64,000 nucleotides of DNA, from positions 8,786,001 through 8,850,000 of the forward strand of contig NZ_CP069396.1 of assembly GCF_016887565.1 (NCBI RefSeq), in the 5' to 3' direction. Below, one piece after another: positions 17,273 through 41,451 of the stretch (position 1 is the first letter of the stretch; each line of letters starts with the position of its first letter). The translations under genes were made by a program, and so were the position numbers. Source of the stretch: Archangium violaceum. GTDB taxonomy: Bacteria > Myxococcota > Myxococcia > Myxococcales > Myxococcaceae. The notes under the pieces were generated by a model. That model did not search any database, was not told the DNA's origin, and saw only the letters and a program-made list of their open reading frames with translations.

Positions 17273-17273
17273 G

Positions 17274-18315: not shown

Positions 18316-18391
18316 AGCCAAGGACGGGGTCCGATGTCGAGGCGTTTAAGGTGGGCTGATTGCATCTGAAACGAGATGGCGGAGGTGAGGC

Positions 18392-19252
18392 GTGTCTTCG
18401 CGCACAAACTCCTGCCGACCCTTTAGAATCGCTCACATGACGACACGTGAACGCACAGTGAGAAAGGGACCCTTCCCCATCCGGGTCCGCATCCTCGAGG
18501 TCCTGCGAACGGTCCGCCTCAGTCCGAACATGGTGCGCGTGACGCTCGGCGGAAAGGATCTGGATGGCTTCCGGAGCGAGGCCGCGGATGACCATGTGAG
18601 GTTGTTCTTCCCCGCCCCGGGAGAAAGGATGCCAGTCGTTCCGACGGGGATGGGGCCCCGGGGATTGGAGTTTCCACCGGACAAACCGCGTCCGGCGCTT
18701 CGCGACTACACGCCCCGGCGCCATGACCCCGTCGCGGGGGAGTTGGACATCGATTTCGTGATCCACGGCTCGGGCCCTGGCTCCACGTGGGCCGCGCAGG
18801 CGAAGCCGGGCGACATGCTGGGAGTGGCCGGCCCACGCGGCTCGTTGGTGGTCACCTACGATTTCGACTGGTACCTCTTCTTCGGCGACGAGACCTCGCT
18901 TCCGGCACTTGCCCGCAGGCTCGAGGAACTGCCCTCGGGCGCGCGGGCCATCGTGTTCGTCGAAGTCGCCGACGCCTCCGCGCGGGTGCCGCTCCAGAGC
19001 CAGGCCAACCTGGAGCTGACCTGGCTGTACAGGGAGGGCGCCCGCCCCGGCACCACGAACCATCTGGAGAAGGCCGTGCGTGAACTGGCTTTTCCTCCCG
19101 GGGATTACTTCGCGTGGGGCGCGGGCGAATCCACTGTCATGCGGACGCTGCGTCAGCACCTGATCAACGAGCGTGGCATCAACAAGGCCTGGATGAGCGT
19201 CACCGGCTATTGGAAGCGGGGCGTGTCGGACCACGATCACGACGAGGAATGA
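18392..19252 (+). CDS. Siderophore-interacting FAD reductase (SIP family)
   Basis: A 286-residue cytoplasmic flavoprotein that releases iron from ferric siderophores by reduction. The FAD site LRDYTPRRHD, the following GELDIDFVIHGSGPGSTWA block, the NAD(P)H-pocket FFGDETSLPAL and the C-terminal WGAGESTVMR are family hallmarks. A GTG start at 18392 is chosen because GGAGGTGAGG sits 6 nt before it. An ATG at 18437 also lies before the conserved region but has no ribosome-binding site. It converges with the haem transporter operon, so the two iron genes share a location but not a transcript. Confidence 0.87.
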   Translation: MSSRTNSCRPFRIAHMTTRERTVRKGPFPIRVRILEVLRTVRLSPNMVRVTLGGKDLDGFRSEAADDHVRLFFPAPGERMPVVPTGMGPRGLEFPPDKPRPALRDYTPRRHDPVAGELDIDFVIHGSGPGSTWAAQAKPGDMLGVAGPRGSLVVTYDFDWYLFFGDETSLPALARRLEELPSGARAIVFVEVADASARVPLQSQANLELTWLYREGARPGTTNHLEKAVRELAFPPGDYFAWGAGESTVMRTLRQHLINERGINKAWMSVTGYWKRGVSDHDHDEE

Positions 19253-19282
19253 ATCAACGTGGCCCTCGCGGGCCACGGGAAT

Positions 19283-20104
19283 TCATGAGCCCTGTTTCAG
19301 GAGGGCATTGGACGAACGCTCTCCTGAAACGATGATCGGGCAATCCAGCCAGGGATGGGGAAGCGTGGTCATGGGGTAGTCGAAAGCCCGGCTGAGGATG
19401 TTTGTCGTCATGACCGAGCGAGGCTCTCCGATTGCAAGGGCTTTCCGCTCGGCGAGCACCAGGACCTTGTCCGCGTATTGGGCGACCAGGTTCAGGTCAT
19501 GGAGGATGAGGAGCGCCGCGACGCCTTCCCGGGTCGCCTCCTTCACCAGTTGCAAGGCCTTGTGCTGATGAGCGATGTCCAGACTGCTCGTGGGCTCATC
19601 CAGCAGGAGCAACCGGTGTCCAGCGGTGTCATGAATCTGGGCGAGCGCGCGCGCGAGGTGGACACGCTGCTGCTCTCCCCCTGAGAGCGTCAGGTAGTTG
19701 CGCGACTCATACCCCTTGAGCCCGACCCGCTCCAGGCAGGCGCGAGCGATCCGCACGTCCTCCCGCGACTCCGGACGGTGCTGCTGGTGGGGGATCCTCC
19801 CCAACATCACGACCTCCAGGGCCTCGTAGGCGAACTGGAGGTTCGTGCTCTGGGGCAACACGGCCCGTCTCCGGGCGAGCTCCGTCCGCGAGCTGCTGCC
19901 CAGGGGGGAGCCGAAGGCGAGCACCTCGCCACTCTGGCTGCGCAGCTCTCCCGTCAGGTGTTTGAAGAGCGTGCTCTTTCCCGCCCCATTGCGTCCGATG
20001 ACCACCAGCAGCTCGCCGGGCTCCAGGGTCAGGTGGATGCCGGACAGGAGCCGCGTCTGGCCGAGCTGACAATGAAGGTCGCGGACCTCGAGGACCGGGT
20101 TCAT
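19283..20104 (-). CDS. hmuV: Haemin ABC transporter ATPase
   Basis: A 273-residue ABC ATPase of the FecE/HmuV group. P-loop GRNGAGKST (37-45), Q-loop PQSTNLQF, signature LSGGEQQRVHLARAL, Walker B LLLLDEPTS and H-loop LILHDLNL are all intact. The extra residues between signature and Walker B (AQIHDTAGHR) are typical of HmuV. It powers haem uptake with HmuU and HmuT. The start ATG overlaps the hmuU stop by 4 bp (ATGA). The last 50 bases contain a 10-bp inverted repeat. Confidence 0.92.
   Translation of the reverse strand: MNPVLEVRDLHCQLGQTRLLSGIHLTLEPGELLVVIGRNGAGKSTLFKHLTGELRSQSGEVLAFGSPLGSSSRTELARRRAVLPQSTNLQFAYEALEVVMLGRIPHQQHRPESREDVRIARACLERVGLKGYESRNYLTLSGGEQQRVHLARALAQIHDTAGHRLLLLDEPTSSLDIAHQHKALQLVKEATREGVAALLILHDLNLVAQYADKVLVLAERKALAIGEPRSVMTTNILSRAFDYPMTTLPHPWLDCPIIVSGERSSNALLKQGS
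19294..19330. repeat. 10-bp inverted repeat at the hmuV 3' end
   Basis: GTTTCAGGAG (19294-19303) and CTCCTGAAAC (19321-19330) are exact reverse complements around a 17-bp loop, inside the final codons of hmuV. No U-run follows on the minus strand, so it is not a standard intrinsic terminator. It could still protect the transcript end or limit collision with the convergent SIP gene. Confidence 0.6.
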
Positions 20105-21180
20105 AGGACGTGGGTCCTTCGCTGCCGCAAGAGCAGGTACAGGAAGAAGGGCGAGCCGGCGAGCGATGTCACGATGCCGATGGGCAACTCGGAAGGAACC
20201 ACGACGGTACGGGCGACCAGATCCGCGAGGACCAGGAGCGCCGAGCCCAGGAGCGCGGAAAGAGGCAACAGGACGCGGTGGTTGGGACCGAGCCACAACC
20301 GGATGAGATGGGGAACCACGAGCCCGATGAAACCGATCATCCCCGAGACGGCGACTCCCGCCCCCACGCCCAGGGCCACGAGCGCCACGATCTTCCACTT
20401 GGTGCGCTCCACGGAGATGCCCAGGTGATGCGCGTTCGCCTCGCCCAGGAGGAGGGCATTGAGTGGGTTCGCGAGAAACAGCATGCCCACGGCGCAGAGC
20501 AGCACCAGGGGCGTGATGGTGGAGACCAGGGTCCACGTCGCTCCCGCGAGCGAGCCGAGCTGCCAGAAGGTCAGGGTCCGCAGCTGATCGTCGGTCGAGA
20601 GATAGGTGAAGAGGCCCGTTCCGGACACGCAGAGCGCGTTGATGGCGACCCCGCACAGAAGCATCATCGCGACGTTGGTCTTGCCGTTCTCCTGGGCCAG
20701 TGAAGCGATGAGGAGGATGGCCACGAAGCTCCCGACGAACGCCGCCACCGGAAGGGTGTAGAAGCCGAGGAGCTGGAGCTTGAGCACCGTGACGGCGGCC
20801 ACGGCGAACGAGGCTCCACCCGACACCCCGAGGAGACCGGGATCGGCGAGCGGATTGCGGAACAGTCCCTGGAGGGCCACACCCGCCACGGAGAGCGCGG
20901 CCCCGACCAGGACGCCCAGGAGGACGCGCGGCAGGCGGATGGCGTAGAGGACCGCCGCCTGCTGCTCCGTGAACGTGGTGAACGGAGGCAGACCGACCTG
21001 CTCGAGAAGGATGGAGACCACCTGGGCGGGGGTGATGGAGACGGCCCCGACCCCCAGGGAGGTCACGACGCAGAGCACCAGGAGCGGGACGAGGACGAGC
21101 AGACCCTTCGTCCTCTTGCCGAGAGCCGTCGAAACGTGCTCGCCCGACCGCGAGATGCTCTCACTGCTGAGGCTTCGCAT
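20101..21180 (-). CDS. hmuU: Haemin ABC transporter permease (FecCD family)
   Basis: A 359-residue inner-membrane permease with about ten membrane helices. The FecCD hallmark RLPRVLLGVLVGAALSVAGVALQGLFRNPLADPGLLGVSGGA is present around residues 82-124, followed by the conserved GxxxPH segment (GLVVPHLIRL). It forms the dimeric channel energised by HmuV. The ATG at 21180 overlaps the end of hmuT by 20 bp, so translation is coupled. Confidence 0.92.
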   Translation of the reverse strand: MRSLSSESISRSGEHVSTALGKRTKGLLVLVPLLVLCVVTSLGVGAVSITPAQVVSILLEQVGLPPFTTFTEQQAAVLYAIRLPRVLLGVLVGAALSVAGVALQGLFRNPLADPGLLGVSGGASFAVAAVTVLKLQLLGFYTLPVAAFVGSFVAILLIASLAQENGKTNVAMMLLCGVAINALCVSGTGLFTYLSTDDQLRTLTFWQLGSLAGATWTLVSTITPLVLLCAVGMLFLANPLNALLLGEANAHHLGISVERTKWKIVALVALGVGAGVAVSGMIGFIGLVVPHLIRLWLGPNHRVLLPLSALLGSALLVLADLVARTVVVPSELPIGIVTSLAGSPFFLYLLLRQRRTHVL

Positions 21181-22057
21181 GGATTGCCGTGAAGATCGCG
21201 TCAGCGAATTGGGGGAAGCGGGGGCCGACCCAGCGGATGCTGTTGTCCACGGCCAGGATCTTCTTGTTCCGGCCCGCTGGAGTCAGGGCCACGCCCGGGA
21301 GCTTCAGGGCGCCGTCGATTCCGCCCACCGCTTCGAGGCCCCGGTTCAACATGATGATCGCATCGGGGGACGCGAGCACCATCCCCTCCGCCGTCAGCAC
21401 CTTGGTTCCCGTGGTGAAGTCCGCGGCGTTCTGACCTCCCGCCAGCTCGATGAGCACGTGGACGCCCGTGTCTTTTCCGTAGACGAAGGCTTCTCCGGGA
21501 CCATGAGCGTAGAGGAAGAGGATCCGGGGCTTCTTCTTCACCGCGGAGCTCTTCTTCCCCAGCTCCGCGCACTGCTTGTCGAGCTCCTGGGTCATCCGCT
21601 TCCCCGCCTCCTGGACGTTGAAGAGCCGCGCGACGACATCGATGCGCCTCTTCAAGCCGTCGATCCCATCCTTGGCGGAGTTCTCGAGGATCAACACGGG
21701 AATCCTGGCGCTCCGGAGCTGCGCGGCGGTGGCGGGCGTCAGGTTCTCCTCCGTCGCGAGAACGAGGTCCGGCTTCAGGCTGACGATGCCCTCGACGCTG
21801 GGATGGTAGGGGTGGCCGACCTTGGCGATCTTCTCCTGCTCGGGAGGATAGGTGCCCCCCACGTCGGTTCCGACGATGGTGTCCCCCTTGCCCAAGCCGA
21901 ACAGGATCTCCACCAGCGAGGAGTTGACCGCGACCACCCGCTTCGGCGGGCCCAGCTCCACGGTCTGTCCGTCGACGCCCTTGAACTGCTCCGCGTGAAC
22001 GAGGGAGCTCGCGAGGACGGAACTCATGAGCAACAACGAGAAGGCTGGATTCCTCAT
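21161..22057 (-). CDS. hmuT: Periplasmic haemin-binding protein
   Basis: A 298-residue periplasmic binding protein with a signal peptide (about 1-22, ending LVHAE). The class III (BtuF/HmuT) pattern is clear: PPKRVVAVNSSLVEILFGLG, GTDVGGTYPPE, KPDLVLATEENLTP and the late WVGPRFPQFADAI. It should deliver haem to HmuUV. The start used is the first ATG with a proper signal sequence; in-frame extension upstream would cross the Fur-like box. First gene of hmuTUV. No TonB-dependent outer-membrane receptor is in the window. Confidence 0.9.
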   Translation of the reverse strand: MRNPAFSLLLMSSVLASSLVHAEQFKGVDGQTVELGPPKRVVAVNSSLVEILFGLGKGDTIVGTDVGGTYPPEQEKIAKVGHPYHPSVEGIVSLKPDLVLATEENLTPATAAQLRSARIPVLILENSAKDGIDGLKRRIDVVARLFNVQEAGKRMTQELDKQCAELGKKSSAVKKKPRILFLYAHGPGEAFVYGKDTGVHVLIELAGGQNAADFTTGTKVLTAEGMVLASPDAIIMLNRGLEAVGGIDGALKLPGVALTPAGRNKKILAVDNSIRWVGPRFPQFADAIFTAIHAKPQQ

Positions 22058-25403: not shown

Positions 25404-25880
25404 TCAACCGCCCGACTTGTCCCTCTTGCTCCCCTTCCGTCTATCAGTACCAGCGCGCTCCGTGCGTGGTCGGCTTCGCTTACTCGGTGAGGCTGGGCGG
25501 GTTGGTTCTGGCTGCTCCGCAGTATCCTCGGCAGGATCAAGGGCCCATGTGCCGCTTTCCCAATTTTTCAGCACCAGTGAGGCTTCAAACGGTACCAACC
25601 CCTCACCCTTCGCCGCTTCTTCGAGTATCGCGCGGGCCTCTGTCGTCCGGTATCGGAGCAAATAAGCAGCGGCCGAGACCCGAACGTCCATGCGAGGGTG
25701 AGTAAACAGCACAGTGAGCGCATCGCGCCCGGCATCACCATGTGCGGTCAACTTGCCGAACGCCGCTATGTATCGTTTGGCGTGTTTGTTGCCGGTCTTC
25801 GCGTCACCTTTCCAGATCGAGTCCGTCTGTGCAGCCACGTTCTCAGCAAACTCCGCAACAAGCTTCTCGATCTCAGTCAC
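25404..25880 (-). CDS. DUF2019-type protein, probable immunity partner of the SitA toxin
   Basis: A 158-residue protein. Residues about 1-115 match the DUF2019 helical-repeat pattern (NKHAKRYIAAFGKLTAHGDAGRDALTVLFTHPRMDVRVSAAAYLL, then ARAILEEAAKGEG and a closing WESGTW). The tail (120-158) is a charged, Arg/Lys-rich disordered extension. The GTG start at 25880 overlaps the toxin stop as GTGA, with AGGGGG upstream. Tight coupling directly after a polymorphic toxin is the normal position of its immunity gene, which is the basis for the proposed role. Confidence 0.82.
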   Translation of the reverse strand: MTEIEKLVAEFAENVAAQTDSIWKGDAKTGNKHAKRYIAAFGKLTAHGDAGRDALTVLFTHPRMDVRVSAAAYLLRYRTTEARAILEEAAKGEGLVPFEASLVLKNWESGTWALDPAEDTAEQPEPTRPASPSKRSRPRTERAGTDRRKGSKRDKSGG

Positions 25881-27274
25881 CAAATGCCCCCTAGAACGTT
25901 CTTGATGGCCAGCAAGCCGAACTCACGCTGGGCCTCATAGGATTGAGTGCTGAGCCACTGCCGCACGGTAAGGGTGTTTGAGTTCGTGATCTTTGGCTGA
26001 ATTGACGAGTAAAGTGCACTGATGCGCGTATGAGCTGATTCCCGTAACGCAAGGATATTCTCGGTGTTGTGTAGGGCCTCGCCCCCGAACCGCTTCACGT
26101 TGCCTGGAGTCTGCTCCACGATGTGATGCCACTCGTTGCCCTTTCCCGCTGGCCCCATGGCCGACTTGAAACCACTGTACGACCCCCACGCCCTGTGTCC
26201 GTTGGGGAGGAGCTTACCCCGACTCAGCGCAGGACTCCCAGCAGCAACGCCCCGGGCAGCCATGGCCACGGCATGAGGGGCCAACACCATGCGGATCGTT
26301 CCCTCGGGCACAGAGACAATAACGCGCTCGGCTCCGGTCGCCGTCTCCAGCAGACTCAAGCCGGTACTCGCCGCGACTCTCTCCGACGCTTGCGCGAATC
26401 CGGGGAGCTTCGGGGCCCTGGAAGCGAGGGCCGCCGTTTCACCAATGGCCGCCGTCCCTACGATTACGAGAATCCGCACACTGTTGGGACCGATGACACG
26501 TCCGAAACGTTCGCCAATCTCGCGCAACTCCGCAAAGCTAGAGGCCCGGGGCGCATCCTCGTAAAGCTGCGCATAGGCCCGCAGCAAGTCGAAGAATTCG
26601 TAACCAAGATAACCCCACAAGGCAGCGCTAAACACCAGGGCCGCGCCCTTTGTCACCGGCTCGGGCACTGGAGCCAGCAGCAGCGCCATATAAACCGTGA
26701 TGCCAATACTCAGCATTGCGAGCATTCGCGTAGGGTCGAGCATGGCCCGTACTTCCGCGTTAACTCCTTCCAGGGCTGGCCCAACCGCCAGGGCGAGCGC
26801 AAGGCTTCGCTTGTCACCATCCTGGAGGCGAGGCCCGTCTTCAAATAGCGTCAGGCAATCCCCCGGAGTGCCGCACCGCTCGCAAAACTGCCCATAGGAG
26901 CGGGCCAGGTCTGATTGCCACGCTTCGCCGCTCAAGGGCGCGGAAGCCAACGCCAGCCTACGGCCCACATACAACAGGGGGCGGGACGCGGCTACCCGAA
27001 GCGGCATGTTGAGCCAAAGCGTTGTCATGGCCGCCGAAAACTCGGCGTCACTCACCTGCACCGGCACAAAGTCCGTGGGCAGCTTGGTAAAAATAGCCGA
27101 TTCGGGCGAGTCGTGCGGCATGGTCGGACGGTAACGGGAAGCCGTCAACCCTCCACCCATGGGGGCTCCCGTGGCACACGCTGAAACCAGCATCAGCGCC
27201 GCCAGGGCCAGCGCCCCCGCACGCAAGGGGCACCGTGTGTCCACGGGGCGAGTATCGACAAAATGCCTAGACAT
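25877..27274 (-). CDS. SitA5-like lipoprotein toxin with HNH/AHH-type C-terminal domain
   Basis: A 465-residue polymorphic toxin. The lipoprotein signal ends in LVSAC (Cys33), as required for swarm-inhibition toxins passed between kin cells by TraA/TraB outer-membrane exchange. The middle (about 125-330) is the conserved Sit scaffold with two hydrophobic stretches, also found in the toxin at 44280. The C-terminal 90 residues hold GKGNEWHHIVEQ (about 382-390), HNTENILAL and ESAHTRI, the histidine layout of HNH/AHH nucleases, so DNA or RNA cleavage is the likely action. GGAGAGGTG precedes the ATG at 27274. An immunity-type gene overlaps its stop. Confidence 0.85.
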   Translation of the reverse strand: MSRHFVDTRPVDTRCPLRAGALALAALMLVSACATGAPMGGGLTASRYRPTMPHDSPESAIFTKLPTDFVPVQVSDAEFSAAMTTLWLNMPLRVAASRPLLYVGRRLALASAPLSGEAWQSDLARSYGQFCERCGTPGDCLTLFEDGPRLQDGDKRSLALALAVGPALEGVNAEVRAMLDPTRMLAMLSIGITVYMALLLAPVPEPVTKGAALVFSAALWGYLGYEFFDLLRAYAQLYEDAPRASSFAELREIGERFGRVIGPNSVRILVIVGTAAIGETAALASRAPKLPGFAQASERVAASTGLSLLETATGAERVIVSVPEGTIRMVLAPHAVAMAARGVAAGSPALSRGKLLPNGHRAWGSYSGFKSAMGPAGKGNEWHHIVEQTPGNVKRFGGEALHNTENILALRESAHTRISALYSSIQPKITNSNTLTVRQWLSTQSYEAQREFGLLAIKNVLGGIW

Positions 27275-27572
27275 TGCCGCACCTCTCCGGGCGAGCCGCC
27301 CGAGTTGGAAGCCCAAACCCGTCGATTACAAAGAGCGGCTGACAGCCAGGTCAAGCCTTTGGGTTTGGTGAGGTACTGAAAACCCATCGACGAGTTGAAG
27401 CCTTACCGCCATGCTTCCCCGGTGGTTGTAGCTCCGGGCCGCATCTGTCCTGAGTGCGTCGGCGGGGTGGCGCTTCAAGTCTCGGCTAATGTCGTCTGAC
27501 GCAACCTCCCTTTCGCGCTCCAGCCATGCGGCGCCCATGAGTCCGGGCCCCAGGTGCCCCGATTTGGTCCCC
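27275..27572. other. Intergenic region, possible remnant
   Basis: About 300 bp upstream of the SitA gene. A minus-strand open frame (27326-27580) gives an Arg/Asp-rich peptide (DDISRDLKRHPADALRTD) that could be debris of a coding sequence, but I cannot identify it and codon use is not convincing. The promoter of the toxin operon must lie in the left part. Confidence 0.4.
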
Positions 27573-27664: not shown

Positions 27665-27954
27665 GGAGGCTTCCGGCGAGAACGCTCCAGAACGGTGGGG
27701 AGCGGTCTTCGTAGGAGCTCCGGCTGCTACGCCGCTCCCTGCCTCGCGCCGAGTTGTGTGGAGAGCGCTCCAGCGCGGGGCTGCTGTAGCAATCTGACGC
27801 CTTCCGCGCTCCCTCGGCCTGCTAGCCGAGAACCAGGGGGCTCGTCTCAGCCGGGCCGTCGCGTCACATCGGGTCGCAGCCATGTCCATCCAGTTGGCCT
27901 CGGAATGCGCTGGGCCGATCCCGCGAACAAGCCACACTGACGGATGGTGTCTGT

Positions 27955-28605
27955 ATGCAAGAGGCCATGAGCATCGGAGATGGGGTTGACGGACGGGACG
28001 CTCCGGAGGTGCTGGACGCGGTCCCCACGGGAGTGCTCGAGAAGCTGAAGGAGTGGATGGAGACGTTCGACCCTTCCGCCCGGCTCCAACTTCCACAGCA
28101 CCTGGTCCACAAGAGAGATCCACGCAACGTCTTCATTGCCCGGCTCGAGCGCGTCTCGGAGGCACGGCCAGACGAGCTCGCGGCGCAGCTCCTCTTCGAC
28201 CCGACCCACCCGTACCACTTCGAGCACCCGCAGGACCACGTCCCGGGGATGATGCTCATGGAGGCAGGTCGACAGCTCGGGCTGGCGGTGACGCACCTGT
28301 TCTACGGGGTACCGCTGGACGCCCTGTTCGTGCTCAACGACGTGAATGCCCGCTTCCGCCGCTTCGCGGAGCTGAGCGAGCCCGTCTTCGTGTACTCGGC
28401 CGTGCGCGAGAAGGTGTACCGGCGGGGGCGCCTCATGTCGATGCGCCAGGCGGGGATCTTCATCCAGCGGGGCGAGCTCCTCGGCTCGATGGATGGGAGC
28501 TGGAGCGTGTACGACCGGCGGCTCATGGAGCGGCTCCGGCGCCGGCCGCGGCCGGAGGATGGGCCGGCCGCCTCCCACCCGATGGCGGCCCCCGCCGCGG
28601 AGTGA
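27955..28605 (+). CDS. AfsA-related hotdog-fold protein
   Basis: A 216-residue protein with one AfsA-type hotdog repeat: LPQHLVHKRDPRNVFIARLE, then LLFDPTHPYHFEHPQDHVPGMMLMEAGRQLGLAVTH (about residues 80-120). In AfsA of Streptomyces two such repeats join a beta-keto acyl chain from ACP to dihydroxyacetone phosphate during gamma-butyrolactone signal synthesis. This one has a single repeat, so it may dimerise or have another acyl-chain role. It is the first gene of a five-gene plus-strand cluster. The next gene starts 6 bp later. An in-frame ATG at 27967 is an alternative start. Confidence 0.8.
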   Translation: MQEAMSIGDGVDGRDAPEVLDAVPTGVLEKLKEWMETFDPSARLQLPQHLVHKRDPRNVFIARLERVSEARPDELAAQLLFDPTHPYHFEHPQDHVPGMMLMEAGRQLGLAVTHLFYGVPLDALFVLNDVNARFRRFAELSEPVFVYSAVREKVYRRGRLMSMRQAGIFIQRGELLGSMDGSWSVYDRRLMERLRRRPRPEDGPAASHPMAAPAAE

Positions 28606-28610
28606 AGCCC

Positions 28611-29909
28611 ATGACGAAACGCTATGTGGTGGTGGGGGGCGGGGTATCTGGCATCGCTGCGGCACACTATCTCCGGGAGGCAGGGGCCGAGGTGGAGCTC
28701 GTCGAGCGGGAGGACTCGCTGGGCGGGCGCGTGGCACCAGCGCTGCTCGACGGCCAGCCCATCGAGCTGGGGGGCAAGAACATCGGCCGGCGCTACCACC
28801 TCTTCCGCGAGTTCGCGCGGAAGATGGGGGAGACGGACTTCGAGCCATTCGGCATCAACTCCTCGCGCGTGCGGCCCAACGGCCGGTTGATGACCGTGGA
28901 CAGCTCGCGCCGATGGAGCAGCGTGCGGGAGCTGATGCGGGCCTGTCCTCCCTCGGACCTGCTCCGCTTCGCCACGCTCTGCGCGCGCGCGGTCTCCCCC
29001 CCGGAGAACGGCTACCTGGGCTCCGTCCGCTTCGATGCCCTCGGCGAGCGCCGGGATGACCGCCCGCTGAGCGCGTACTTCAGCGAGGCCTTCAGCGAGG
29101 CCGTGCTCCGCCCCATGGTGGTCCGGATGAATGGCGCCGAGCCGGACGAGGTCTTCCCCGGCAACGTCGGCACCAATCTCCGGATGCTGCTGGACACGTA
29201 CGAGCAGCCGAAGCGCGGCATGCGGGCCCTCTTCGATCGCTTCGCGAGGACTGTACGGGTGACGCGAGGCACTCGCGCCCGAGGGCTGGTGGTGCGGGAC
29301 GGGCGGGTAGAGGCCCTGGAGCTGGAGGGGCCCGGGGGCGCCCGCGAGGAGCGCACGTGTGATGGGGTGCTGCTCGCCATGCCCGCGCACGCCAGCGCCG
29401 CGCTGCTGACTCCGCACGAGCCGGGTCTGGCCCAGGCACTCGGCCACGTGCGCTACTTCCCGGTGCTGGTGGTGGTGGCCCGGTACGCGCGGGAGGTCTT
29501 CTCCCACTCCACCCGCGCGCTCGTCTTCGGCCCGGAGCACCCGCTGAGCAACGCGGGGGCGTACGGCATCAACGCCCTGGACGTGGTGCGCTACACGTTC
29601 AGCGGGCGCACCGCACGCCGGGCCCTGGAGGCCGGGGCGGACGCGGAGGCACTGCTGCGCGCCGGGGAGGAGCTGCTCGGCCGCCACTTCCCCGTCCACC
29701 CCGCCGAGCGGGTGACCTACGTCGCACGGCGCTTCGAGCCGGGACTGTGCGCCTACACACCCCACCATGCCCGCCTGCGGCGCGAGCTGGACACTGGCCT
29801 GGGGAGGCTCCGCGGCCTCCAGCTCGCCGGGGACTACCTGCGGGGCGCCTCCATCGAGGCCTGCTTCCGCGCGGCGAAGGAATCTGCGGGGCAGATGCTG
29901 AGGAGCTAG
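28611..29909 (+). CDS. FAD-dependent oxidoreductase (amine oxidase/desaturase-like)
   Basis: A 432-residue flavoprotein. The N-terminal dinucleotide-binding motif is VVGGGVSGIAAAHYLREAGAEVELVERED with the following LGGRV (residues 6-41). The C-terminal FAD motif GLQLAGDYLRGASIEACFRAAKESA is the form found in the phytoene desaturase / protoporphyrinogen oxidase / amine oxidase superfamily. No membrane segment is obvious. Its ATG lies 6 bp after the AfsA-like stop. An oxidative step on a lipid or polyene intermediate is plausible from context. The substrate is unknown. Confidence 0.85.
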   Translation: MTKRYVVVGGGVSGIAAAHYLREAGAEVELVEREDSLGGRVAPALLDGQPIELGGKNIGRRYHLFREFARKMGETDFEPFGINSSRVRPNGRLMTVDSSRRWSSVRELMRACPPSDLLRFATLCARAVSPPENGYLGSVRFDALGERRDDRPLSAYFSEAFSEAVLRPMVVRMNGAEPDEVFPGNVGTNLRMLLDTYEQPKRGMRALFDRFARTVRVTRGTRARGLVVRDGRVEALELEGPGGAREERTCDGVLLAMPAHASAALLTPHEPGLAQALGHVRYFPVLVVVARYAREVFSHSTRALVFGPEHPLSNAGAYGINALDVVRYTFSGRTARRALEAGADAEALLRAGEELLGRHFPVHPAERVTYVARRFEPGLCAYTPHHARLRRELDTGLGRLRGLQLAGDYLRGASIEACFRAAKESAGQMLRS

Positions 29910-29958
29910 TGAGCGGCGCTGGCGCTCCACCTGACGAGTGCAAGCAAAGGAGAGGACG

Positions 29959-31434
29959 ATGCGGAAATACTATCTGGGGCCGGAGCCCAGCCATGAAGTG
30001 CCGTTCAAGAAGCTCCTGGCGATCTCCCACTACATCATGCCCAACTTCGCCACGCTGGAGTGGGATCGGGTCTCACGCGAGCAGGTGGACGAGAACCTGC
30101 GCTCGTTGCAGGACCCGGGGGGGGCGCTGAACGACGAGCTGATGATGTACATCCACGTGCCGTACTGTCAGTCGTTCTGCCATTACTGCAACTTCAACAA
30201 GAACCACTATCCCTGGCAGGACGAGGAGCGGCTACAGCGATACACGGACTACCTCATCAAGGAGATCGACTACTACCTGTCGCTCCCCTACGTGCAGGCG
30301 CGGAGGTTCACGGCCATCTACATCGGGGGGGGAAGCCCCTCCACGCTCCCGGTCTCGGCGGTGGAGCGGCTGTTCGGGCACATGGCGAAGGCAGTGCCGG
30401 GGTTCGACACCATCGAGAAGACGTTCACGGGCGAGCCGCGCACGCTGCGCAAGCCGGACCTGCTGAAGGTCATCCACGACTACGGCTTCGACCGCGTGAC
30501 GTTCGGCATCGAGACGCTCAACCCGGAGATCCACAAGCAGATAGGCCGGTGGGACTCTCGGAGCGACGTGGACGCGGTGTTCGAGGGGCTGCAGAAGCTG
30601 GGGTACAAGGGCGACCGCTGCGTCGACCTCATGTATGACCTGCCGGGGCAGTCGCTGGTGGGCTTCCAGGAGGAGCTGGCGACGCTGGTGGAGCACTACC
30701 GGCCGGACGAGATCGACGCATTCGGGACCGTGTACCTGCCGTACCGGCCGCTGCACAAACTCATCCTCGACGGGCGGGTGCCACAGCCGGGGAGCATCTG
30801 GCAGCTCCTGCGGATGCGCGAGCACCTGTATGACTACCTGCTGGAGAACGGCTACCACAACACCATCGCCGAGACGTACTCGCGCAAGCCCCAGCGCAGC
30901 ATGTACCAGACGGCGCACTGCGCGCGGCAGGACATCATCGGCATCGGCTGCGCGGCGCGCAGCAACATCAAGGACATGGTGTCCATCAACCCGGACAAGG
31001 TCGATGTCTGGATGAACAACATCGACCAGTACGGGGTATCCACGCAGACGCTGCAGAGCATCGGACGGGGCGGAGTGCTGGACCGGATCATGGTGATGTT
31101 CCCGCGTTACAAGGAGCTCTCCAAGGAGCTGCTCGACCGCTACTCGGACGTGGAGCACTTCGAGCAGGTGGAGGACGTCCTGCGCTCGCACATCGAGGTG
31201 GGGTGCGTGGAGGAGCAGGAGGACCGGTACGTCGTCAACAAGCTGGGCGTCATCTGGCACGGCAACCTGCAGACGGACTACATGGAGCGTTCGCTGAACC
31301 TGCAGGGAAAGGTCCTCCTGAAGGTCATCTCGGAGAAGGAGAGCGACTTCGATCGAGAGGAGCGCTTCAAGGTGAACACGGCGACCCGATTCATCGCGAA
31401 GCACATCGACAAGTACCCGAAGCTGATGAAGTAG
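29959..31434 (+). CDS. HemN-like radical SAM enzyme
   Basis: A 491-residue radical SAM protein with the cluster motif YCQSFCHYC (Cys70, Cys74, Cys77) and SAM-site GGGSPSTLP, in the layout of HemN/HemW-type (class C) enzymes. A true HemN would serve haem synthesis. Here the neighbours are lipid-type enzymes, and class C relatives also make cyclopropanes and methylate in natural-product pathways, so such a role is inferred. The ATG at 29959 has AGGAGAGGA just upstream. A 49-bp gap separates it from the FAD oxidoreductase, and 19 bp from the hydrolase. Confidence 0.87.
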   Translation: MRKYYLGPEPSHEVPFKKLLAISHYIMPNFATLEWDRVSREQVDENLRSLQDPGGALNDELMMYIHVPYCQSFCHYCNFNKNHYPWQDEERLQRYTDYLIKEIDYYLSLPYVQARRFTAIYIGGGSPSTLPVSAVERLFGHMAKAVPGFDTIEKTFTGEPRTLRKPDLLKVIHDYGFDRVTFGIETLNPEIHKQIGRWDSRSDVDAVFEGLQKLGYKGDRCVDLMYDLPGQSLVGFQEELATLVEHYRPDEIDAFGTVYLPYRPLHKLILDGRVPQPGSIWQLLRMREHLYDYLLENGYHNTIAETYSRKPQRSMYQTAHCARQDIIGIGCAARSNIKDMVSINPDKVDVWMNNIDQYGVSTQTLQSIGRGGVLDRIMVMFPRYKELSKELLDRYSDVEHFEQVEDVLRSHIEVGCVEEQEDRYVVNKLGVIWHGNLQTDYMERSLNLQGKVLLKVISEKESDFDREERFKVNTATRFIAKHIDKYPKLMK

Positions 31435-31453
31435 CCCGGGAAGGGGGTGCTCG

Positions 31454-32368
31454 ATGGTCGACGTGGTGCGCAGGCGCGAGGTCGTGCCGGTGGAGGATGG
31501 TACGCGGCTGGAACTGGAGGTCTTCGAGCAGGTGGAGGGAAGGGAGGCACCGGTCCTCCTGTGCCTGCCGGCGATGGGAGTCCCAGCGCGGTACTACGAG
31601 CCGTTCGCGCTCGAGCTGCACCGGCGGGGTTTCCACGTCGTCACGAGCGACCTGCGCGGGCACGGGGCGAGTTCCGTACGCGTGGGCCGGGGGACGGACT
31701 TCGGCTACTACGAGATGGTGGCGCGGGACCTGGGGGCGGTGGTGCGGGCGGTACGCGCGGCCTTCCAGGACAGCCCCCTGTTCCTGGTGGGGCACAGCCT
31801 GGGCGGGCAGCTCGGCTCGCTCTACCTGGGCCTGGAGGGCGAGGGAGTACGAGGGCTCGTCCTCGTGGCGGCCTCTTCGGTGTACTACCGGAATTACGGG
31901 GCGCTGGGCGGAGTGAAGGTGCTGCTCGGCACGCAGCTCGCGGCGGTCATCGCCACGGTGTGGGGGTACTTCCCGGGGCGGAGGCTGCGGTTCGCGGACA
32001 ACGAGTCGGCCCGGGTGATACAGGACTGGGCGCGTCAGGCGAGGACGGGGCGCTACGTGCTCTCCGGGGCCGCGCAGGACTTCGAGGCGCTGCTCGCCCG
32101 GGTGGAGCGGCCGGTGCTGGCCATCTCGGTGGATGGGGATTCGCTGGCGCCACCGGCCGCGGTGGATCACCTGTACGGGAAGATGCCGCGGGCCCGGGTG
32201 GTGCGGTGGCACTTCACGCAGTCCGATGCAGGGGGAGCGCACTTGGATCACTTCCGCTGGGTACGCCACGGTGCGCCCGTGGCGGCGCGCATCGCGGGGT
32301 GGGTGGGGGAGGTGCTCGCGGGGGAGGCGGGCGCCGGACAGGACCCGCGGACGGAGGGCCGGCCATGA
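31454..32368 (+). CDS. Alpha/beta-fold hydrolase
   Basis: A 304-residue hydrolase. The nucleophile elbow is GHSLGG (Ser115), the acid is likely Asp227 or Asp229 in SVDGDSLAPP, and the histidine His263 or His266 in GAHLDHFRW. The oxyanion region LPAMGVPARYY lies at 38-48. It could be an esterase, thioesterase or acyltransferase; sequence alone does not separate these. It starts 19 bp after the radical SAM gene and overlaps the desaturase start by 4 bp (ATGA), so it belongs to the same operon. Confidence 0.87.
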   Translation: MVDVVRRREVVPVEDGTRLELEVFEQVEGREAPVLLCLPAMGVPARYYEPFALELHRRGFHVVTSDLRGHGASSVRVGRGTDFGYYEMVARDLGAVVRAVRAAFQDSPLFLVGHSLGGQLGSLYLGLEGEGVRGLVLVAASSVYYRNYGALGGVKVLLGTQLAAVIATVWGYFPGRRLRFADNESARVIQDWARQARTGRYVLSGAAQDFEALLARVERPVLAISVDGDSLAPPAAVDHLYGKMPRARVVRWHFTQSDAGGAHLDHFRWVRHGAPVAARIAGWVGEVLAGEAGAGQDPRTEGRP

Positions 32369-33312
32369 GCGACACGGCCCCGGCGCTCCCGCGCCTGCCA
32401 CGCGAGCTGTACACCCCGTCACTCGTGGGCGGGGCCAGCTTCATCGGCTACGCGGTGGGGCTGTTCGTCGTGCCCGCGTGGCTGGCCGTGGAGCTCGTAT
32501 CGAGCCCGGTGGCGCTGGCCCTGCGCATCCCCGGCGTGCTGGCCCTCCTGCTCGTGGCGCAGCAGGGAGTCCACCTGCTGGGGTGGGTGGGACATGAGGG
32601 GTTCCACTTCAACCTGCACCGCAACCGGTACGTCAGTGCCCTGCTGGGCATCTTCTTCTCCTCGATGGTGCTGTCCTTCTTCCAGGTGGGCGTGGGGCCG
32701 ACGCATTGGGTGCACCACCGGTACACCAACCGGCCCGAGGATCCGGACTGGCGCATCTTCTCGCGCTACCAGACGCTCGGGCGGCGGCTCCTCCTGGGGC
32801 GGGCGCAGGCGAACCGCGTCTTCCTGCGGAACCTGCTCAAGGTGGCCCTCGGCCGGGAGCTGGACTTCCCCCACGTCGTGCCGTTCCGGCCCGCGGAGCT
32901 ACGGGCACTCGCGTGGGTGAACATCGCCTGCTCTCTGCTGTGGTTGTCGGTGTACGTGGCCATCACCGTGCGGAGCCCGCTGGCGGGGCTGGTGGGCATC
33001 CTGCTGCCGCACGTGCTGGGGTTCTTCTTCAGCGGCCCAAGGCCCTACGTGGAGCACGCGGGGACGGGGGTGGGACAGGGCCGGGATGCCCGCACGTGCT
33101 CCTCGAAGTTCATGACGGTGCTCTTCATGGGAAACAACTTCCACCTGGAGCACCACCTCTATCCCGCCATCCCCTGCTACCGCCTGCCCTCGGTCCATCG
33201 CTACCTGACCGAACAGGGCTTCTTCGAGCGAGAGGGCATCCCCATCGAGACCACGGTGCGCGGCGCCTATGCACATGCGTCGGGGCGCTCGCGTTACCCG
33301 TCGTATGTGTAA
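32365..33312 (+). CDS. Membrane fatty-acid desaturase
   Basis: A 315-residue integral membrane di-iron enzyme with the three histidine boxes of the FA_desaturase family: H77-EGF-H81, H114-WV-HH (114-118) and H260-LE-HH (260-264). About four to five membrane helices surround them. The family inserts double bonds into acyl chains or hydroxylates/ketolates carotenoids and lipids. Last gene of the five-gene cluster, coupled to the hydrolase. Its stop is 4 bp from the convergent lipoprotein gene with no terminator between. Confidence 0.88.
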   Translation: MSDTAPALPRLPRELYTPSLVGGASFIGYAVGLFVVPAWLAVELVSSPVALALRIPGVLALLLVAQQGVHLLGWVGHEGFHFNLHRNRYVSALLGIFFSSMVLSFFQVGVGPTHWVHHRYTNRPEDPDWRIFSRYQTLGRRLLLGRAQANRVFLRNLLKVALGRELDFPHVVPFRPAELRALAWVNIACSLLWLSVYVAITVRSPLAGLVGILLPHVLGFFFSGPRPYVEHAGTGVGQGRDARTCSSKFMTVLFMGNNFHLEHHLYPAIPCYRLPSVHRYLTEQGFFEREGIPIETTVRGAYAHASGRSRYPSYV

Positions 33313-33316
33313 TCCT

Positions 33317-35227
33317 CTACGGGCCCGAGAACACGCCGATGGCCCCGGGCGTGGTGTCGTCCCCCTGGAAGGCCACGAGGATGCGCCGCGGGTTGCTCGA
33401 GCGGTCCACCTGGATGTCCGAGATGCGCATCCAGACCAGCTCACTCGGGAGGACTCCGCTGCCGTACTTCAGCACCGTGGAGCCCTGCACGCGGCTCAGG
33501 CCTCCGCCCCAGCTCGCGCCCGCCCACACGCTGTTGTCGAGCGGGTCCCCCGCGACGGCCGACACGTAGCCCTTTCCATCGACGAGCTCGGTGGACAGCG
33601 TGCGCAGGCGAGTCCCGCTCGCGTCGAGCAGCGCCAGGCCCCGGTTCCAGCTCCCCACCCAGACGCTCTGATCGCTCATCACCGCCATGCCCGACACGTT
33701 GTCATCCACGCGCTGCGCCAGGGTGGGAATGGAGGGCTCGCCCACGGCGTCCGGCCAGATGTCATAGCGATTCCACGCGTAGGCACTGTCCTCGGTCTGC
33801 GATTGGGCCGCCCAGTAATTGTAGCCGTTGGTGCCGTAGCGGAAGCGGGTGGAGCGGTTGGCACCGCCAAACCACACGTCTCCATTCGAGGCCACCGAGA
33901 CGCCGTAATACGCGTCGGTGAGCAGCACCAGGCCCGTCTGGTTGGAGTTCCACGCGTTGATGGCCGGGTGCGCGTGCTCCTTCACTCCGGCGCAGCTGTA
34001 GTCCCAGGTCCCCGGGGGGCAGCTGTACCCGGCGAAGTCCGCGTTGCCCCAGGCGAAGCCGTGGTTGGCGCCGAACCAGACGCTCCTCGTCCGCGAGTCG
34101 TAGGCAATGCGCCAGATGTTGCAGAGCTTCTCGCGCCCGCGCGGCTCGGCGGAGACCTTGTTGGGGCCGGTGGAGAGATCGTAATGCACCACCTGGATGC
34201 CCGTGGACGTCAGCGTCACGCGGTCCGCGTCACCACTCTTGTAGATGCTCGCATCGGGAGCGCGGCCTTCCGCGGGGGCCTGATCCCATTCGTCCTCGCA
34301 CGTGGGCATGCCCGCGGCGGGCTTCTTGCCCTCGTACCCGACGAAGGCGACGCCCGGGGGGCCTCCGGCGACGGAGATGACCTTCAGGTACTTCTCACCC
34401 GCGGGGGCACTCCCGTCGAGCATGTAGCCGTAGGGCCGCAGGCCATCCGCCATGGTGAAGCGGCGGAACTGCGTCTGGCCCTTCTGGAGGACGAACAGCC
34501 CCTCCTCACCTCCGGCCACCCAGAGGTTTCCCCCCTCGTCGGCGCTCACGCCGAACACATACCGGGGCCCCCCCTGTGCCGTGCCGAGGAACGTCCAGCC
34601 GTTCCCGGTCGGAGGAGGTGGATTGGTACTGCCCGTCTCCACCGTCACGACGAGCTGGGGCCTCCGGGCGGTGTTGGACGCCTCCCGCGATTGGAACTCG
34701 GTGCCATCCGCGCCCGTGGCGATCAGCGCGAGGTTCACCGTGCCATTGCCCTGGACGGCGGCGGTCACGTCCCACTCGGTCCAGGTGCTGGAGGCCACCG
34801 AGGTGACGCGGGACAGCTGGGTCCGCGCCACGGGCTTCGTCTGGAAGGTGACGGTGCCCTCCTGCCATGTGGAATCCGTCGTGTAGACGGCGGGACCCGT
34901 GGTGGTCGAGCCCGTCGCGTACAGGCGGAGTCTGGCGCTGCGCACGGTGCCATTGAGCCCGCTCAGCTCGAAGCGCAGGAAGGACGCGTACTCGGGTGAG
35001 CCGTCCACCTTCAGCGTACTGTCCCCCCCGAAGTTCTGGGCCGGGTAGTCCGACTCCACCCGCGCATCGGCGACAGGGGTGAAGACACGCGTCTCCTCGA
35101 GGCCCTGGCTCACCGTCGAGAGCCCACCCGCCGTCTCCTCCAATTCAACCGTCCCCCCACAGTGCGTGAGCAGCCCCACCGCGGTCACGCACATTCCCCA
35201 CCTCGCCCACCCCTTCAGCCTTCCCAC
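33317..35227 (-). CDS. Lipoprotein with DNRLRE domain and beta-propeller
   Basis: A 636-residue surface-type protein. The signal ends LLTHC (Cys23). Residues about 45-195 form a DNRLRE domain (VADARVESDYPAQNFGGDSTLKVDG, then TWQEGTVTFQTKP, TEWDVTAAVQ), a beta-sandwich common in secreted bacterial proteins. About 210-636 shows repeated blades like those of two-component-regulator propellers (GGNLWVAGGEEGLFVL, GDVWFGGANRSTRF, SVWVGSWNRGLALLD, NSVWAGASWGGGLSRV). Probably a cell-surface binding protein; the ligand is unknown. Confidence 0.85.
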   Translation of the reverse strand: MGRLKGWARWGMCVTAVGLLTHCGGTVELEETAGGLSTVSQGLEETRVFTPVADARVESDYPAQNFGGDSTLKVDGSPEYASFLRFELSGLNGTVRSARLRLYATGSTTTGPAVYTTDSTWQEGTVTFQTKPVARTQLSRVTSVASSTWTEWDVTAAVQGNGTVNLALIATGADGTEFQSREASNTARRPQLVVTVETGSTNPPPPTGNGWTFLGTAQGGPRYVFGVSADEGGNLWVAGGEEGLFVLQKGQTQFRRFTMADGLRPYGYMLDGSAPAGEKYLKVISVAGGPPGVAFVGYEGKKPAAGMPTCEDEWDQAPAEGRAPDASIYKSGDADRVTLTSTGIQVVHYDLSTGPNKVSAEPRGREKLCNIWRIAYDSRTRSVWFGANHGFAWGNADFAGYSCPPGTWDYSCAGVKEHAHPAINAWNSNQTGLVLLTDAYYGVSVASNGDVWFGGANRSTRFRYGTNGYNYWAAQSQTEDSAYAWNRYDIWPDAVGEPSIPTLAQRVDDNVSGMAVMSDQSVWVGSWNRGLALLDASGTRLRTLSTELVDGKGYVSAVAGDPLDNSVWAGASWGGGLSRVQGSTVLKYGSGVLPSELVWMRISDIQVDRSSNPRRILVAFQGDDTTPGAIGVFSGP

Positions 35228-39678: not shown

Positions 39679-39767
39679 CATCGTGATCACCAGGATCGGA
39701 GCATCGTGATCAGCGAGATCGGAGCATCGTGATCACCGGGATCGGCCATCGTGCTCAGCGGGCCAAG
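39679..39767 (+). repeat. Left-end multiple terminal repeats of the IS21 element
   Basis: Four near-identical tandem copies of about 21 bp begin at 39679, 39702, 39725 and 39747 (period 22-23 bp). Each starts CATCGTG and most continue ATCA then (A/G)(A/G)GATCGG. The fourth is the most diverged. They match the IS21 transposase-binding sites at left ends. Confidence 0.85.
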
Positions 39768-39906
39768 GTGCCCGAGGACTACGCTGGAGGTCAGGTGGTT
39801 CGCCCTACGGGGCCCGTCGGCTGGTAGCAACCGGACGCGGGAGGGCGGGCGAGCCGAGCGAGCACGCTGGACGGCATTCGTCGACGGCCCTCCGCGAGGA
39901 GGGCCG

Positions 39907-41451
39907 ATGGCCACGGAGCGACTGTCCATGCGTCACATACGAGAAGTGCTACGGCAGAAGTGGGAGCAGAAGAGAAGCCACCGGGAGGTGGCCAGCAGCC
40001 TGGGAATCAGCGCGGGGGCGGTGGGGAGCGTGCTGGCGCGCGCTGCGGCGGCGAAGCTGAGCTGGGAGCAGGTGGAGCAGATGCGGGAGGAGGAGCTGGA
40101 GGAGCGGCTGTATGGCGCCGTGCCGAAGCCCACGGCCCAGAGGCCCCTGCCCGACCCGGTGTACATCCACACGGAGAGAAAGAAGCCCGGCGTCACGCTG
40201 GAGCTGTTGCACCTGGAGTACCTGGAGAAACACCCGGAGGGGTACCGCTACACGCAGTTCTGCGAGTACTACCGGCAGTGGTTGGCCAAACACCGGCTCA
40301 CCATGAGGCAGGAGCACCGGGCGGGAGAAAAGCTCTTCGTCGACTACTCGGGAAACAAGCCGCACCTGGTGGACGAGACAACGGGCGAGCGCGTGGAGGT
40401 GGAGCTGTTCGTGGCGGTGCTGGGGGCCTCCAACTACACGTACGCGGAGGCCACGCGCACGCAGCGAGGGCCGGACTTCATCGCCAGTCACCAGCGCTGC
40501 TTCGTGTACCTCGGTGGCGTGCCGGGAGCGCTGGTGCCTGACCAGCTCAAGAGCGGGGTGACGCGCGCGTGCCGCTACGAGCCGGGAGTGCAGCGCACGT
40601 ACGAGGAATTCGCGCGGCACTGCGGCACGGTGGTGCTGCCAGCGCGCCCGCGCTCGCCCCGGGACAAGGCGAAGGTGGAGGTGGGCGTGCTGGTGGTGCA
40701 GCGCTGGCTACTGGCGCGGCTGCGCCACCACACCTTCTTCTCGCTGGAGGCGCTCAACGAGCGCATTGGCGAGCTGCTGGAGGACCTCAATAACCGAAAA
40801 ATGAGGCTGTACGACGCGAGCCGGAGAGAGCTCTTCGAGCGGCTGGACAAACCGGCGCTGCGGCCGCTACCGGCCGAGGCTTTCACCTACGGCGAGTGGA
40901 AGCAGGTGCGAGTCAACATCGACTACCACGTGCAGGTGCACCATCACTTCTACTCGGTGCCGTACGCGCTGGTGCACCAGGTGCTGGAGGCGCGAGTGAC
41001 GGCCACCACGGTGGAGCTGTACCAGCGCGGCGAGCGCGTGGCGAGTCACGTGCGTAGCGACGAGCGGGGCCGGCACACCACGCAGCCGGAGCACATGCCC
41101 AAGGCGCACCAGAAGCACCTGGAGTGGACGCCCTCGCGGCTGGTGCACTGGGCGGGCACCATCGGCCCCAACACCCAGAAGCTGGTGGAGAGCATCCTGC
41201 GCGAGCGTCCTCACCCGGAGCTGGGTTACCGCTCCTGCCTGGGGATACTGCGGCTGGCCAGGCGCTACGGCAACGAGCGGCTGGAGGCGGCGTGCACGCG
41301 AGCCCTGGCCGTGAGCGCCCGCTCCTTCCGGCACGTGGACTCCATTCTCCAGAATGGGCTGGACCGGCTCGCCCCACCAACGGACGAAGCGCAACCGGAG
41401 CTCGCCGCGCAGACGCACGAGAACGTGCGCGGCAGCGACTACTACCACTGA
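39907..41451 (+). CDS. istA: IS21-family transposase IstA
   Basis: A 514-residue DDE transposase. The N-terminal helix-turn-helix (MRHIREVLRQKWEQKRSHREVASSLGISAGAVGSVLAR) binds the terminal repeats. The catalytic core starts at GEKLFVDYSGNKPHLVD (first Asp), with later PDQLKSGVTRA and SPRDKAKVEVGVLVVQRWLL (Glu), followed by the C-terminal beta domain. Length is normal and no stop interrupts it, so it may be active. The ATG at 39907 has GAGGAGG upstream. Confidence 0.93.
   Translation: MATERLSMRHIREVLRQKWEQKRSHREVASSLGISAGAVGSVLARAAAAKLSWEQVEQMREEELEERLYGAVPKPTAQRPLPDPVYIHTERKKPGVTLELLHLEYLEKHPEGYRYTQFCEYYRQWLAKHRLTMRQEHRAGEKLFVDYSGNKPHLVDETTGERVEVELFVAVLGASNYTYAEATRTQRGPDFIASHQRCFVYLGGVPGALVPDQLKSGVTRACRYEPGVQRTYEEFARHCGTVVLPARPRSPRDKAKVEVGVLVVQRWLLARLRHHTFFSLEALNERIGELLEDLNNRKMRLYDASRRELFERLDKPALRPLPAEAFTYGEWKQVRVNIDYHVQVHHHFYSVPYALVHQVLEARVTATTVELYQRGERVASHVRSDERGRHTTQPEHMPKAHQKHLEWTPSRLVHWAGTIGPNTQKLVESILRERPHPELGYRSCLGILRLARRYGNERLEAACTRALAVSARSFRHVDSILQNGLDRLAPPTDEAQPELAAQTHENVRGSDYYH

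Follow-up and report, generated by a model that had tools for sequence, protein, structure and literature searches.

Introduction

AfsA-type hotdog proteins include the AfsA/ScbA gamma-butyrolactone synthases, and the two plasmid-borne ScbA genes used here as yardsticks both adjoin genes for ScbR receptors. HemN-like class C radical S-adenosylmethionine (SAM) enzymes, ChuW among them, transfer a methylene group from a second SAM molecule, according to the available part of one account (PMC6050322), and the polycyclopropane enzymes of the Jaw5 type are stated in the accessible part of another to carry a Cx7CxxC motif (PMC13389473). Here, a gene set is described that joins an AfsA-type hotdog gene to a radical SAM (rSAM) gene, a flavoenzyme gene, and an alpha/beta hydrolase gene in Archangium violaceum (Myxococcota; Myxococcaceae). 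It lies within a stretch of 64,000 nucleotides (contig NZ_CP069396.1, positions 8,786,001 to 8,850,000), referred to as the window, whose coordinates are used throughout. The four genes form a real, rare, mobile, and biosynthetic cassette that is undescribed as far as searched, and a desaturase gene that follows them in the window is an optional addition. With moderate confidence, this horizontally spread cassette of four enzymes is proposed to make a fatty-acid-derived natural product or specialised lipid.

Organization of the Locus

The cassette genes of the window and the accessory gene are as follows, with P0001, P0002, and P0003 denoting the window proteins of the first three.

27955-28605, + strand: AfsA-type hotdog gene (P0001; 216 aa, single domain; PF03756, 112 bits)
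28611-29909, + strand: flavin adenine dinucleotide (FAD) oxidoreductase gene of the amine-oxidase family, protoporphyrinogen oxidase (PPO)-like (P0002; 432 aa; PF01593, 91 bits)
29959-31434, + strand: HutW-like rSAM gene of the HemN superfamily (P0003; 491 aa; Radical_SAM, 63 bits)
31454-32368, + strand: alpha/beta hydrolase gene (304 aa; Hydrolase_4, 72 bits)
32365-33312, + strand: membrane fatty-acid desaturase/hydroxylase-type gene, accessory (315 aa; PF00487, 111 bits)

The intergenic gaps are 5, 49, 19, and -4 bp, and the Pfam scores of all five proteins exceed the cut-offs of their families (AfsA, Amino_oxidase, Radical_SAM, Hydrolase_4, and FA_desaturase). Coordinates and Pfam matches thus confirm the five tightly packed genes on one strand reported in an initial annotation of this DNA, which had the last three gaps right and gave the first as 6 bp. 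Its three-His-box desaturase can likewise be read from the protein (HEGFH, HWVHH, and HLEHH). The AfsA gene is the only AfsA match in the whole 13.2 Mb genome.

Distribution and the Conserved Four-Gene Core

Twelve cassette loci were compared, several of them near-duplicates. Three come from the window's family and are termed the myxobacterial loci (the window, G063 from the same genus, and G092 from another genus), two are alphaproteobacterial (L013, a Hyphomonadaceae metagenome-assembled genome (MAG) placed in the Hyphomonadales in NCBI, and G609 from the same order), and seven are from actinomycetes. The AfsA, FAD enzyme, rSAM, and hydrolase genes are clustered in 12 of 12 loci bearing a close rSAM homologue, and therefore the clustering is not by chance. 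The order AfsA-FAD-rSAM-hydrolase is common to the three myxobacterial and two alphaproteobacterial loci, while the seven actinomycete loci are ordered AfsA-(FabH)-rSAM-hydrolase-FAD. The desaturase gene occurs in two of the 12 loci (the window and G063) and has no match in G092, the seven actinomycete loci, or the two alphaproteobacterial loci; in G092, an unrelated gene stands directly after the hydrolase gene. When the desaturase was sought at E 1e-20 in 96 genomes of the window's family, only the window genome and G063 had a match. The conserved core is thus four genes and the desaturase is an optional accessory. The earlier view of a five-gene block acting as a system holds for the conserved set, its conserved order in the myxobacterial and alphaproteobacterial loci, and its recurrence beyond the window genome, and is narrowed in its gene number.

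The cassette is rare. When 195 genomes of the window's phylum were searched with the rSAM protein, six matched at E 1e-40, three at 96-100% identity (the window genome, G063, and G092) and three at 26-29%, so that cassette-type rSAM genes are found in 3/195; four further congeners (G061, G062, G064, and G065) gave no rSAM match. A pattern scan of a genome collection (84,980 species) returned six rSAM loci at 62-67%; by their titles, five belong to actinomycetes and the sixth is the Hyphomonadaceae MAG. In the genus to which S. roseoverticillatus belongs, 4/392 genomes have the gene, and two of the four are new; in the order that includes the Hyphomonadaceae MAG, 2/348 have it, and one is new. 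At E 1e-60, the sole rSAM match among 396 genomes of the actinomycete phylum was the centre genome of that sample, and the same was found among 398 genomes of the proteobacterial phylum. One actinomycete locus, L010, is titled Streptosporangium, a label that is doubtful given identities of up to 98% between its cluster proteins and their S. roseoverticillatus counterparts.

More distant relatives of single cassette proteins stand apart from the set. Hydrolase relatives in Nocardia, Streptomyces sp. 3211, and Rhodococcus (35-42%) have no AfsA, FAD enzyme, or rSAM match within 8 kb, and a Pseudonocardia relative of the FAD enzyme adjoins a major facilitator superfamily (MFS) transporter gene and a dapA-like gene, with no AfsA gene annotated within 7 kb. 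A profile of the FAD enzyme run against 142 alphaproteobacterial genomes at E 1e-20 matched only the centre genome of that sample. On a megaplasmid of Mycetohabitans rhizoxinica (L056, 7953-8513), a gene for a single-domain AfsA hotdog 41% identical to P0001 is found beside transposase genes, with no rSAM, FAD enzyme, or hydrolase match within 8 kb.

Mobility and Selection

The extent of the cassette is set by the stretches conserved with the two other myxobacterial loci.

27778-33326, strand not assigned: mobile cassette extent conserved with G063 (97.2% identity; flanks unrelated)
27828-32348, strand not assigned: mobile cassette extent shared with G092 (94.7% identity; flanks unrelated)

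The flanks differ across the three genomes, and the cassette thus occupies a changed genomic position. When 19.9 kb stretches of G063 and G092 were compared with the window at E 1e-5, nothing was common outside the cassette except one 116-column match in G063 at 70%. HemW of the window genome is 85.0% identical to that of G092 and 95.3% identical to that of G063, and HemN is 97.3% identical between the window genome and G063. The cassette identity of 94.7% with G092, set against 85.0% for HemW, therefore indicates a recent transfer between genera, as judged from this one housekeeping gene; blastn with HemN found nothing to match in the G092 loci compared. The G063 copy, by the same identities, fits vertical descent combined with a move within the genome. 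In most comparisons of the three copies, the genes appear under purifying selection (rSAM, window versus G092: nonsynonymous rate dN 0.019, synonymous rate dS 0.098). The two alphaproteobacterial loci have downstream genes in common.

Two routes of mobility were considered and rejected. Phage carriage was sought in one scan of viral_contigs, in which 43 stretches fit the pattern and none encodes a relative. A tRNA integration site adjoining the cassette was suspected by eye from a tRNA-like appearance near 27630, which ARAGORN refuted, as it found no tRNA anywhere in the 64 kb window.

Other genes of the window were noted by eye. A lipoprotein-like gene with an HNH/AHH-looking nuclease motif at its C-terminus (25404-27316, - strand) and the small gene adjoining it resemble a polymorphic toxin/immunity pair. 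An open reading frame at 39751-41451 (+ strand) resembles an IS21-type transposase gene.

The Radical SAM Enzyme

P0003 carries the cluster motif CxxxCxxC (C70, C74, and C77) and belongs to the most conserved of the four protein families of the core, with 57-67% mean identity between the three groups. Its best NCBIfam model is ChuW/HutW (TIGR04107) at 171.4 bits against a cut-off of 400, followed by STM4012 (123 bits), HemW (121 bits), and HemN (TIGR00538; 110.6 bits against 324.95). The initial description as HemN-like is thus narrowed, with ChuW/HutW as the closest family and neither cut-off reached. The ChuW/HutW model matches 15 of 15 aligned rows with the best E-value, and 15 other models also match all 15. 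Two alignments were used, A1 with nine of the 12 cassette rows and A2 with all 12 plus three distant rows; the catalytic motifs are invariant in nine aligned rows. The C-terminal motif GxxWxxN is common to P0003 and the HutW of Rahnella.

The window genome has its own HemW, which scores over the cut-off, and its own HemN, recognized by motif and tree. The HemN segment NFQGYT, present in this HemN, in Rhizobium HemN, and in the HemN structure 1olt, is a gap in P0003 and the two relatives shown. In a tree of 20 rows with long, unresolved deep branches, which took 10 of the 12 cassette rows and left out L010 and L027, the cassette proteins form a clade of their own (100/100), and the genome's HemN groups with Rhizobium HemN apart from it (100/99). 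The identification of P0003 as HemN was therefore rejected, and with it the grouping with true HemN that had been named as counterevidence. A cyclopropanase of the jawsamycin type was also rejected, as P0003 has CxxxCxxC in place of Cx7CxxC. By analogy with its class C relatives, P0003 would transfer a SAM-derived methylene group.

Two other settings of related rSAM genes were observed. Within the window's family, another HutW-like gene (26-29% to P0003) occurs in a different, partly conserved neighbourhood (L016, 7820-17647; L017, 8913-18768; and L018). On a Klebsiella pneumoniae plasmid (L041, 2959-5275), a HemN-superfamily rSAM gene (21% to P0003) overlaps one for a cytochrome P450, and an MFS transporter gene lies further along.

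The AfsA-Type Hotdog

P0001 matches PF03756 far over the cut-off of 24 bits and falls below the ScbA/BarX cut-off (NF041195; 93.7 versus 200 bits). PF03756 was the only family reported for it at E 0.01, and the FabZ sequence family was not matched. P0001 has one AfsA domain and aligns to the second half of its longer actinomycete homologues (294-353 aa), with two AfsA stretches found in each of the two actinomycete homologues scanned. The predicted model of P0001 matches FabZ (7qv0_C) with Z 16.3 and a root mean square deviation of 2.0 over 132 aligned residues. In alignment with the FabZ encoded by the same genome, H91 and E103 fall on a His and a Glu, which we take to be the working dyad of that enzyme. 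The motif EAGRQ of P0001 (E103, R106, and Q107) corresponds to EATRQ and EAARQ in two ScbA C-terminal domains and to EAMAQ in the genome's FabZ, and the hotdog H, E, R, and Q are kept in 12/12 homologues. With a fold predicted to be FabZ-like and a motif of the ScbA type, both condensation and dehydration are possible reactions.

The FAD Enzyme and the Hydrolase

The best NCBIfam model of the FAD enzyme is protoporphyrinogen oxidase at 73.2 bits against a cut-off of 517, and its best solved structure is 2ivd, also a protoporphyrinogen oxidase. Its glycine-rich motifs are invariant in 12 homologues; a further alignment (A4) contains nine of the 12 cassette rows and one Aliiroseovarius row. Plasmid relatives at E 1e-5 were found on eight records of Aliiroseovarius crassostreae, and on 8/8 of these the AfsA and FAD enzyme genes are adjacent without an rSAM gene (one pair spans the record start). 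On one record (L057, 4104-7805), TrpF-like, TrpA-like, AfsA, and FAD enzyme genes are consecutive, and MFS and LysE transporter genes come after them. An AfsA gene and a related flavoenzyme gene, by these sequence matches, recur as a pair independent of the rSAM gene. In the hydrolase, S115, D229, and H266 are invariant in 12 homologues and presumably form a Ser-Asp-His triad, as assigned by motif.

Fatty-Acid Genes and the Probable Substrate

Genes for an acyl carrier protein (ACP) and a FabF-like ketosynthase (KS) adjoin the core in 7/7 actinomycete loci, where a crotonase gene is also found nearby in 7/7. FabG-like genes of the short-chain dehydrogenase/reductase (SDR) type and FabI- and FabH-like genes are present in 6/7, L008 being the exception. 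The KS motifs SACxAG, NAHGT, and GHLLGAAG, whose residues we take to be catalytic, are found in 6/7, with L012 lacking the first pattern. Because ACP, KS, and mostly Fab-like genes adjoin the actinomycete cores, the enzymes probably act on an acyl chain bound to ACP.

The six actinomycete queries (KS, ACP, FabI, FabH, SDR, and crotonase) gave no match in the 64 kb window at E 1e-5, nor in the myxobacterial or alphaproteobacterial loci. This agrees with the earlier statement that the window holds no full fatty-acid synthase (FAS), made together with the absence of polyketide synthase (PKS) and nonribosomal peptide synthetase genes, which were not searched for as such. Where no FAS genes are near, the acyl chain is most likely borrowed from the host. 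The earlier proposal of a host acyl chain as substrate need not apply to the actinomycete versions, which have adjoining ACP and KS genes.

Proposed Pathway and Alternative Explanations

In the pathway proposed for a natural product or specialised lipid, we infer the acyl-ACP substrate, the order of the steps, and the reaction of each enzyme. Acyl-ACP would be supplied by the host in myxobacteria and alphaproteobacteria, or by cassette-adjoining genes in actinomycetes. The AfsA-type hotdog would take the acyl-ACP and either condense a beta-keto acyl group with a small acceptor, thereby off-loading it, or dehydrate it. The HutW-like rSAM enzyme would then add a SAM-derived methylene to an sp2 carbon, resulting in methylation, cyclopropanation, or ring formation. 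Oxidation (desaturation) of the product may fall to the PPO-like flavoenzyme, and the alpha/beta hydrolase may release it or open an ester. A further modification would be made by the desaturase in the window and one congener.

Several observations weigh against this reading. FAS genes adjoin the cassette in actinomycetes only, and L008, which matches none of FabG, FabI, and FabH, shows another KS-like match (33%) lying 1.6 kb past the FAD enzyme gene, so its genomic context may differ from that of the other actinomycete loci. HutW is a distant relative of the rSAM enzyme, given the score noted above. Run against solved structures, none of which is a HutW, the rSAM profile scores higher with HemN (1olt, 150 bits) than with the methyltransferase NocN (101 bits). 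The predicted rSAM model is poor (predicted local distance difference test, pLDDT, 65) and the AlphaFold2 model of P0001 is moderate (pLDDT 75). The AfsA genes of the window and G063 have a dN/dS of about 0.8, a sign of weak constraint, over a short distance. In favour of the proposal, the four proteins show closely correlated pairwise distances (Mantel r 0.94-0.99; 0/2000 permutations in each of six comparisons), but the test shares the three-taxon grouping and cannot separate co-transfer from parallel descent.

A separate observation concerns L008 (NRRL B-1140). At 15218-21471, the region past the cassette contains the KS-like tblastn match (33%) and, on the opposite strand, an open frame of 1603 residues that is perhaps a PKS.

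The alternative that survives best, although it is unlikely, is an operon for membrane-lipid remodelling, forming for example cyclopropanated or methyl-branched phospholipid fatty acids rather than a secreted natural product. The lack of a transporter gene within the cassette would suit such a role, as would the lack of any match to the actinomycete FAS proteins in the myxobacterial and alphaproteobacterial loci, the membrane desaturase in two loci, and the position of the L013 cassette between PLD/cardiolipin-synthase-like and GlpD-like genes (by eye). The very patchy distribution argues against it, the ACP, KS, and FabH-like genes in actinomycetes resemble those of secondary metabolism, and the hydrolase suggests that a product is released.

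Butyrolactone-type signalling, in which a butenolide made by AfsA from a C3 acceptor and beta-ketoacyl-ACP would be tailored by the other enzymes and act as an autoinducer, is improbable. In its favour, P0001 truly belongs to the AfsA family and carries EAxRQ, the motif of the ScbA C-terminal domain, and an AfsA gene of Ruegeria pomeroyi is required for competitor killing and for the transcription of its own cluster, according to the available part of the report (PMC7426152). However, when the 12 cassette loci (mostly 6-10 kb on either side) were searched by tblastn with two ScbR proteins, no receptor was found other than one weak helix-turn-helix match in the window, TetR/ScbR-like, at 17102-17263 on the - strand (35% over 54 residues, E 5e-5), 10 kb from the cassette. 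A haloacid dehalogenase (HAD) phosphatase query from an ScbA locus found no homologue in the same 12 loci, and P0001 stays below the ScbA/BarX cut-off. Matches to an NAD(P)H-binding protein lie about 6 kb past the cassette in L011 and L027. As no ScbR-type receptor is found near the cassette, a lipid natural product is preferred to a butyrolactone signal, and these searches lend no support to a signalling role. Of the lipid or signalling pathway first suggested, the lipid part is therefore the one that probably stands.

Least probable is a tetrapyrrole-modifying set, in which the rSAM and FAD enzymes would act on a porphyrin: the best families and best solved structures of the two enzymes point to ChuW/HutW, HemW, HemN, and protoporphyrinogen oxidase, but both enzymes score far under the curated cut-offs, the rSAM enzyme lacks the NFQGYT segment, the genome already has its own HemW and HemN, and the partner gene is AfsA, joined in actinomycetes by those for ACP, KS, and mostly FabH-like proteins.

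Within the favoured reading of a fatty-acid-derived natural product or lipid, a more specific and tentative proposal, to which we give low confidence, is that the cassette represents the first member of an undescribed class, in which an AfsA-type hotdog, a methylene-transferring rSAM enzyme, and a flavoenzyme build a carbon ring or cyclopropane on acyl-ACP. It would then be a self-contained plug-in module that crosses phyla and uses host fatty-acid synthesis. The earlier statement that the pathway is undescribed is upheld by searches of the open-access literature, which returned no description of an AfsA/FAD/rSAM/hydrolase set; a published account could exist, as subscription journals lie mostly outside that literature. 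Nothing was found there on ScbA mutants.

Chemistry by rSAM enzymes on fatty-acyl chains could yield rings or branches that few other enzymes make, and a four-gene set found in three phyla, in natural versions with and without FAS genes, would offer a practical entry to such chemistry. The cassette would also provide a genome-mining handle for a compound class absent from the searched literature, and it places an AfsA protein in an apparently biosynthetic rather than signalling setting.

Comparison With Known Systems

The cassette hotdog shares with the AfsA/ScbA gamma-butyrolactone synthases the PF03756 hotdog and the H, E, R, and Q of the DHxPG...EAxRQ motif. In contrast, the hotdog of the window is a single-domain protein below the ScbA/BarX cut-off and is partnered with an rSAM enzyme, and the cassette has no ScbR or HAD phosphatase match nearby, apart from the weak one noted above. 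The AfsA-like chain release of gladiostatin is similar in that an AfsA-like domain serves biosynthesis and not signalling, as stated in the available part of its description (PMC8868522). There, a PKS chain is freed, whereas the cassette has a free-standing hotdog with an rSAM enzyme, an FAD enzyme, and a hydrolase; this comparison is by description only (PMC8868522).

Among ChuW/HutW and the other class C methylenetransferases (C10P, NosN, and Jaw5), likeness is seen in the best family score, the CxxxCxxC motif, and the GxxWxxN motif in common with Rahnella HutW. P0003 differs in its low score (171 versus 400 bits) and its separate clade (100/100). Its gene also has AfsA, FAD enzyme, and hydrolase genes as neighbours and no heme-use gene in the cassette, whereas hutX adjoins hutW in Rahnella, no search having been aimed at hutX.

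The anammox clusters linked to ladderanes likewise combine FAS genes, rSAM enzymes, and flavoenzymes resembling amine oxidases and phytoene desaturases (PMC2649909). An AfsA hotdog is not mentioned in the available part of that account, and the two are likened by description, not by sequence (PMC2649909). The killing cluster of Ruegeria pomeroyi provides a further parallel, as its AfsA-type gene (SPOA0342) was horizontally acquired, resides outside actinomycetes, and has an experimental phenotype in the accessible text (PMC7426152). Its neighbours differ, consisting of a HAD hydrolase, a tautomerase, and hypothetical proteins, with no rSAM gene annotated in the 35 kb shown. In the plasmid cluster of Aliiroseovarius, TrpF- and TrpA-like enzymes replace the rSAM enzyme and the hydrolase, and the hotdog has EGAVQ instead of EAxRQ; nevertheless, its AfsA and FAD enzyme genes form an adjacent pair, as in the window, and its FAD enzyme is 28% identical to P0002.

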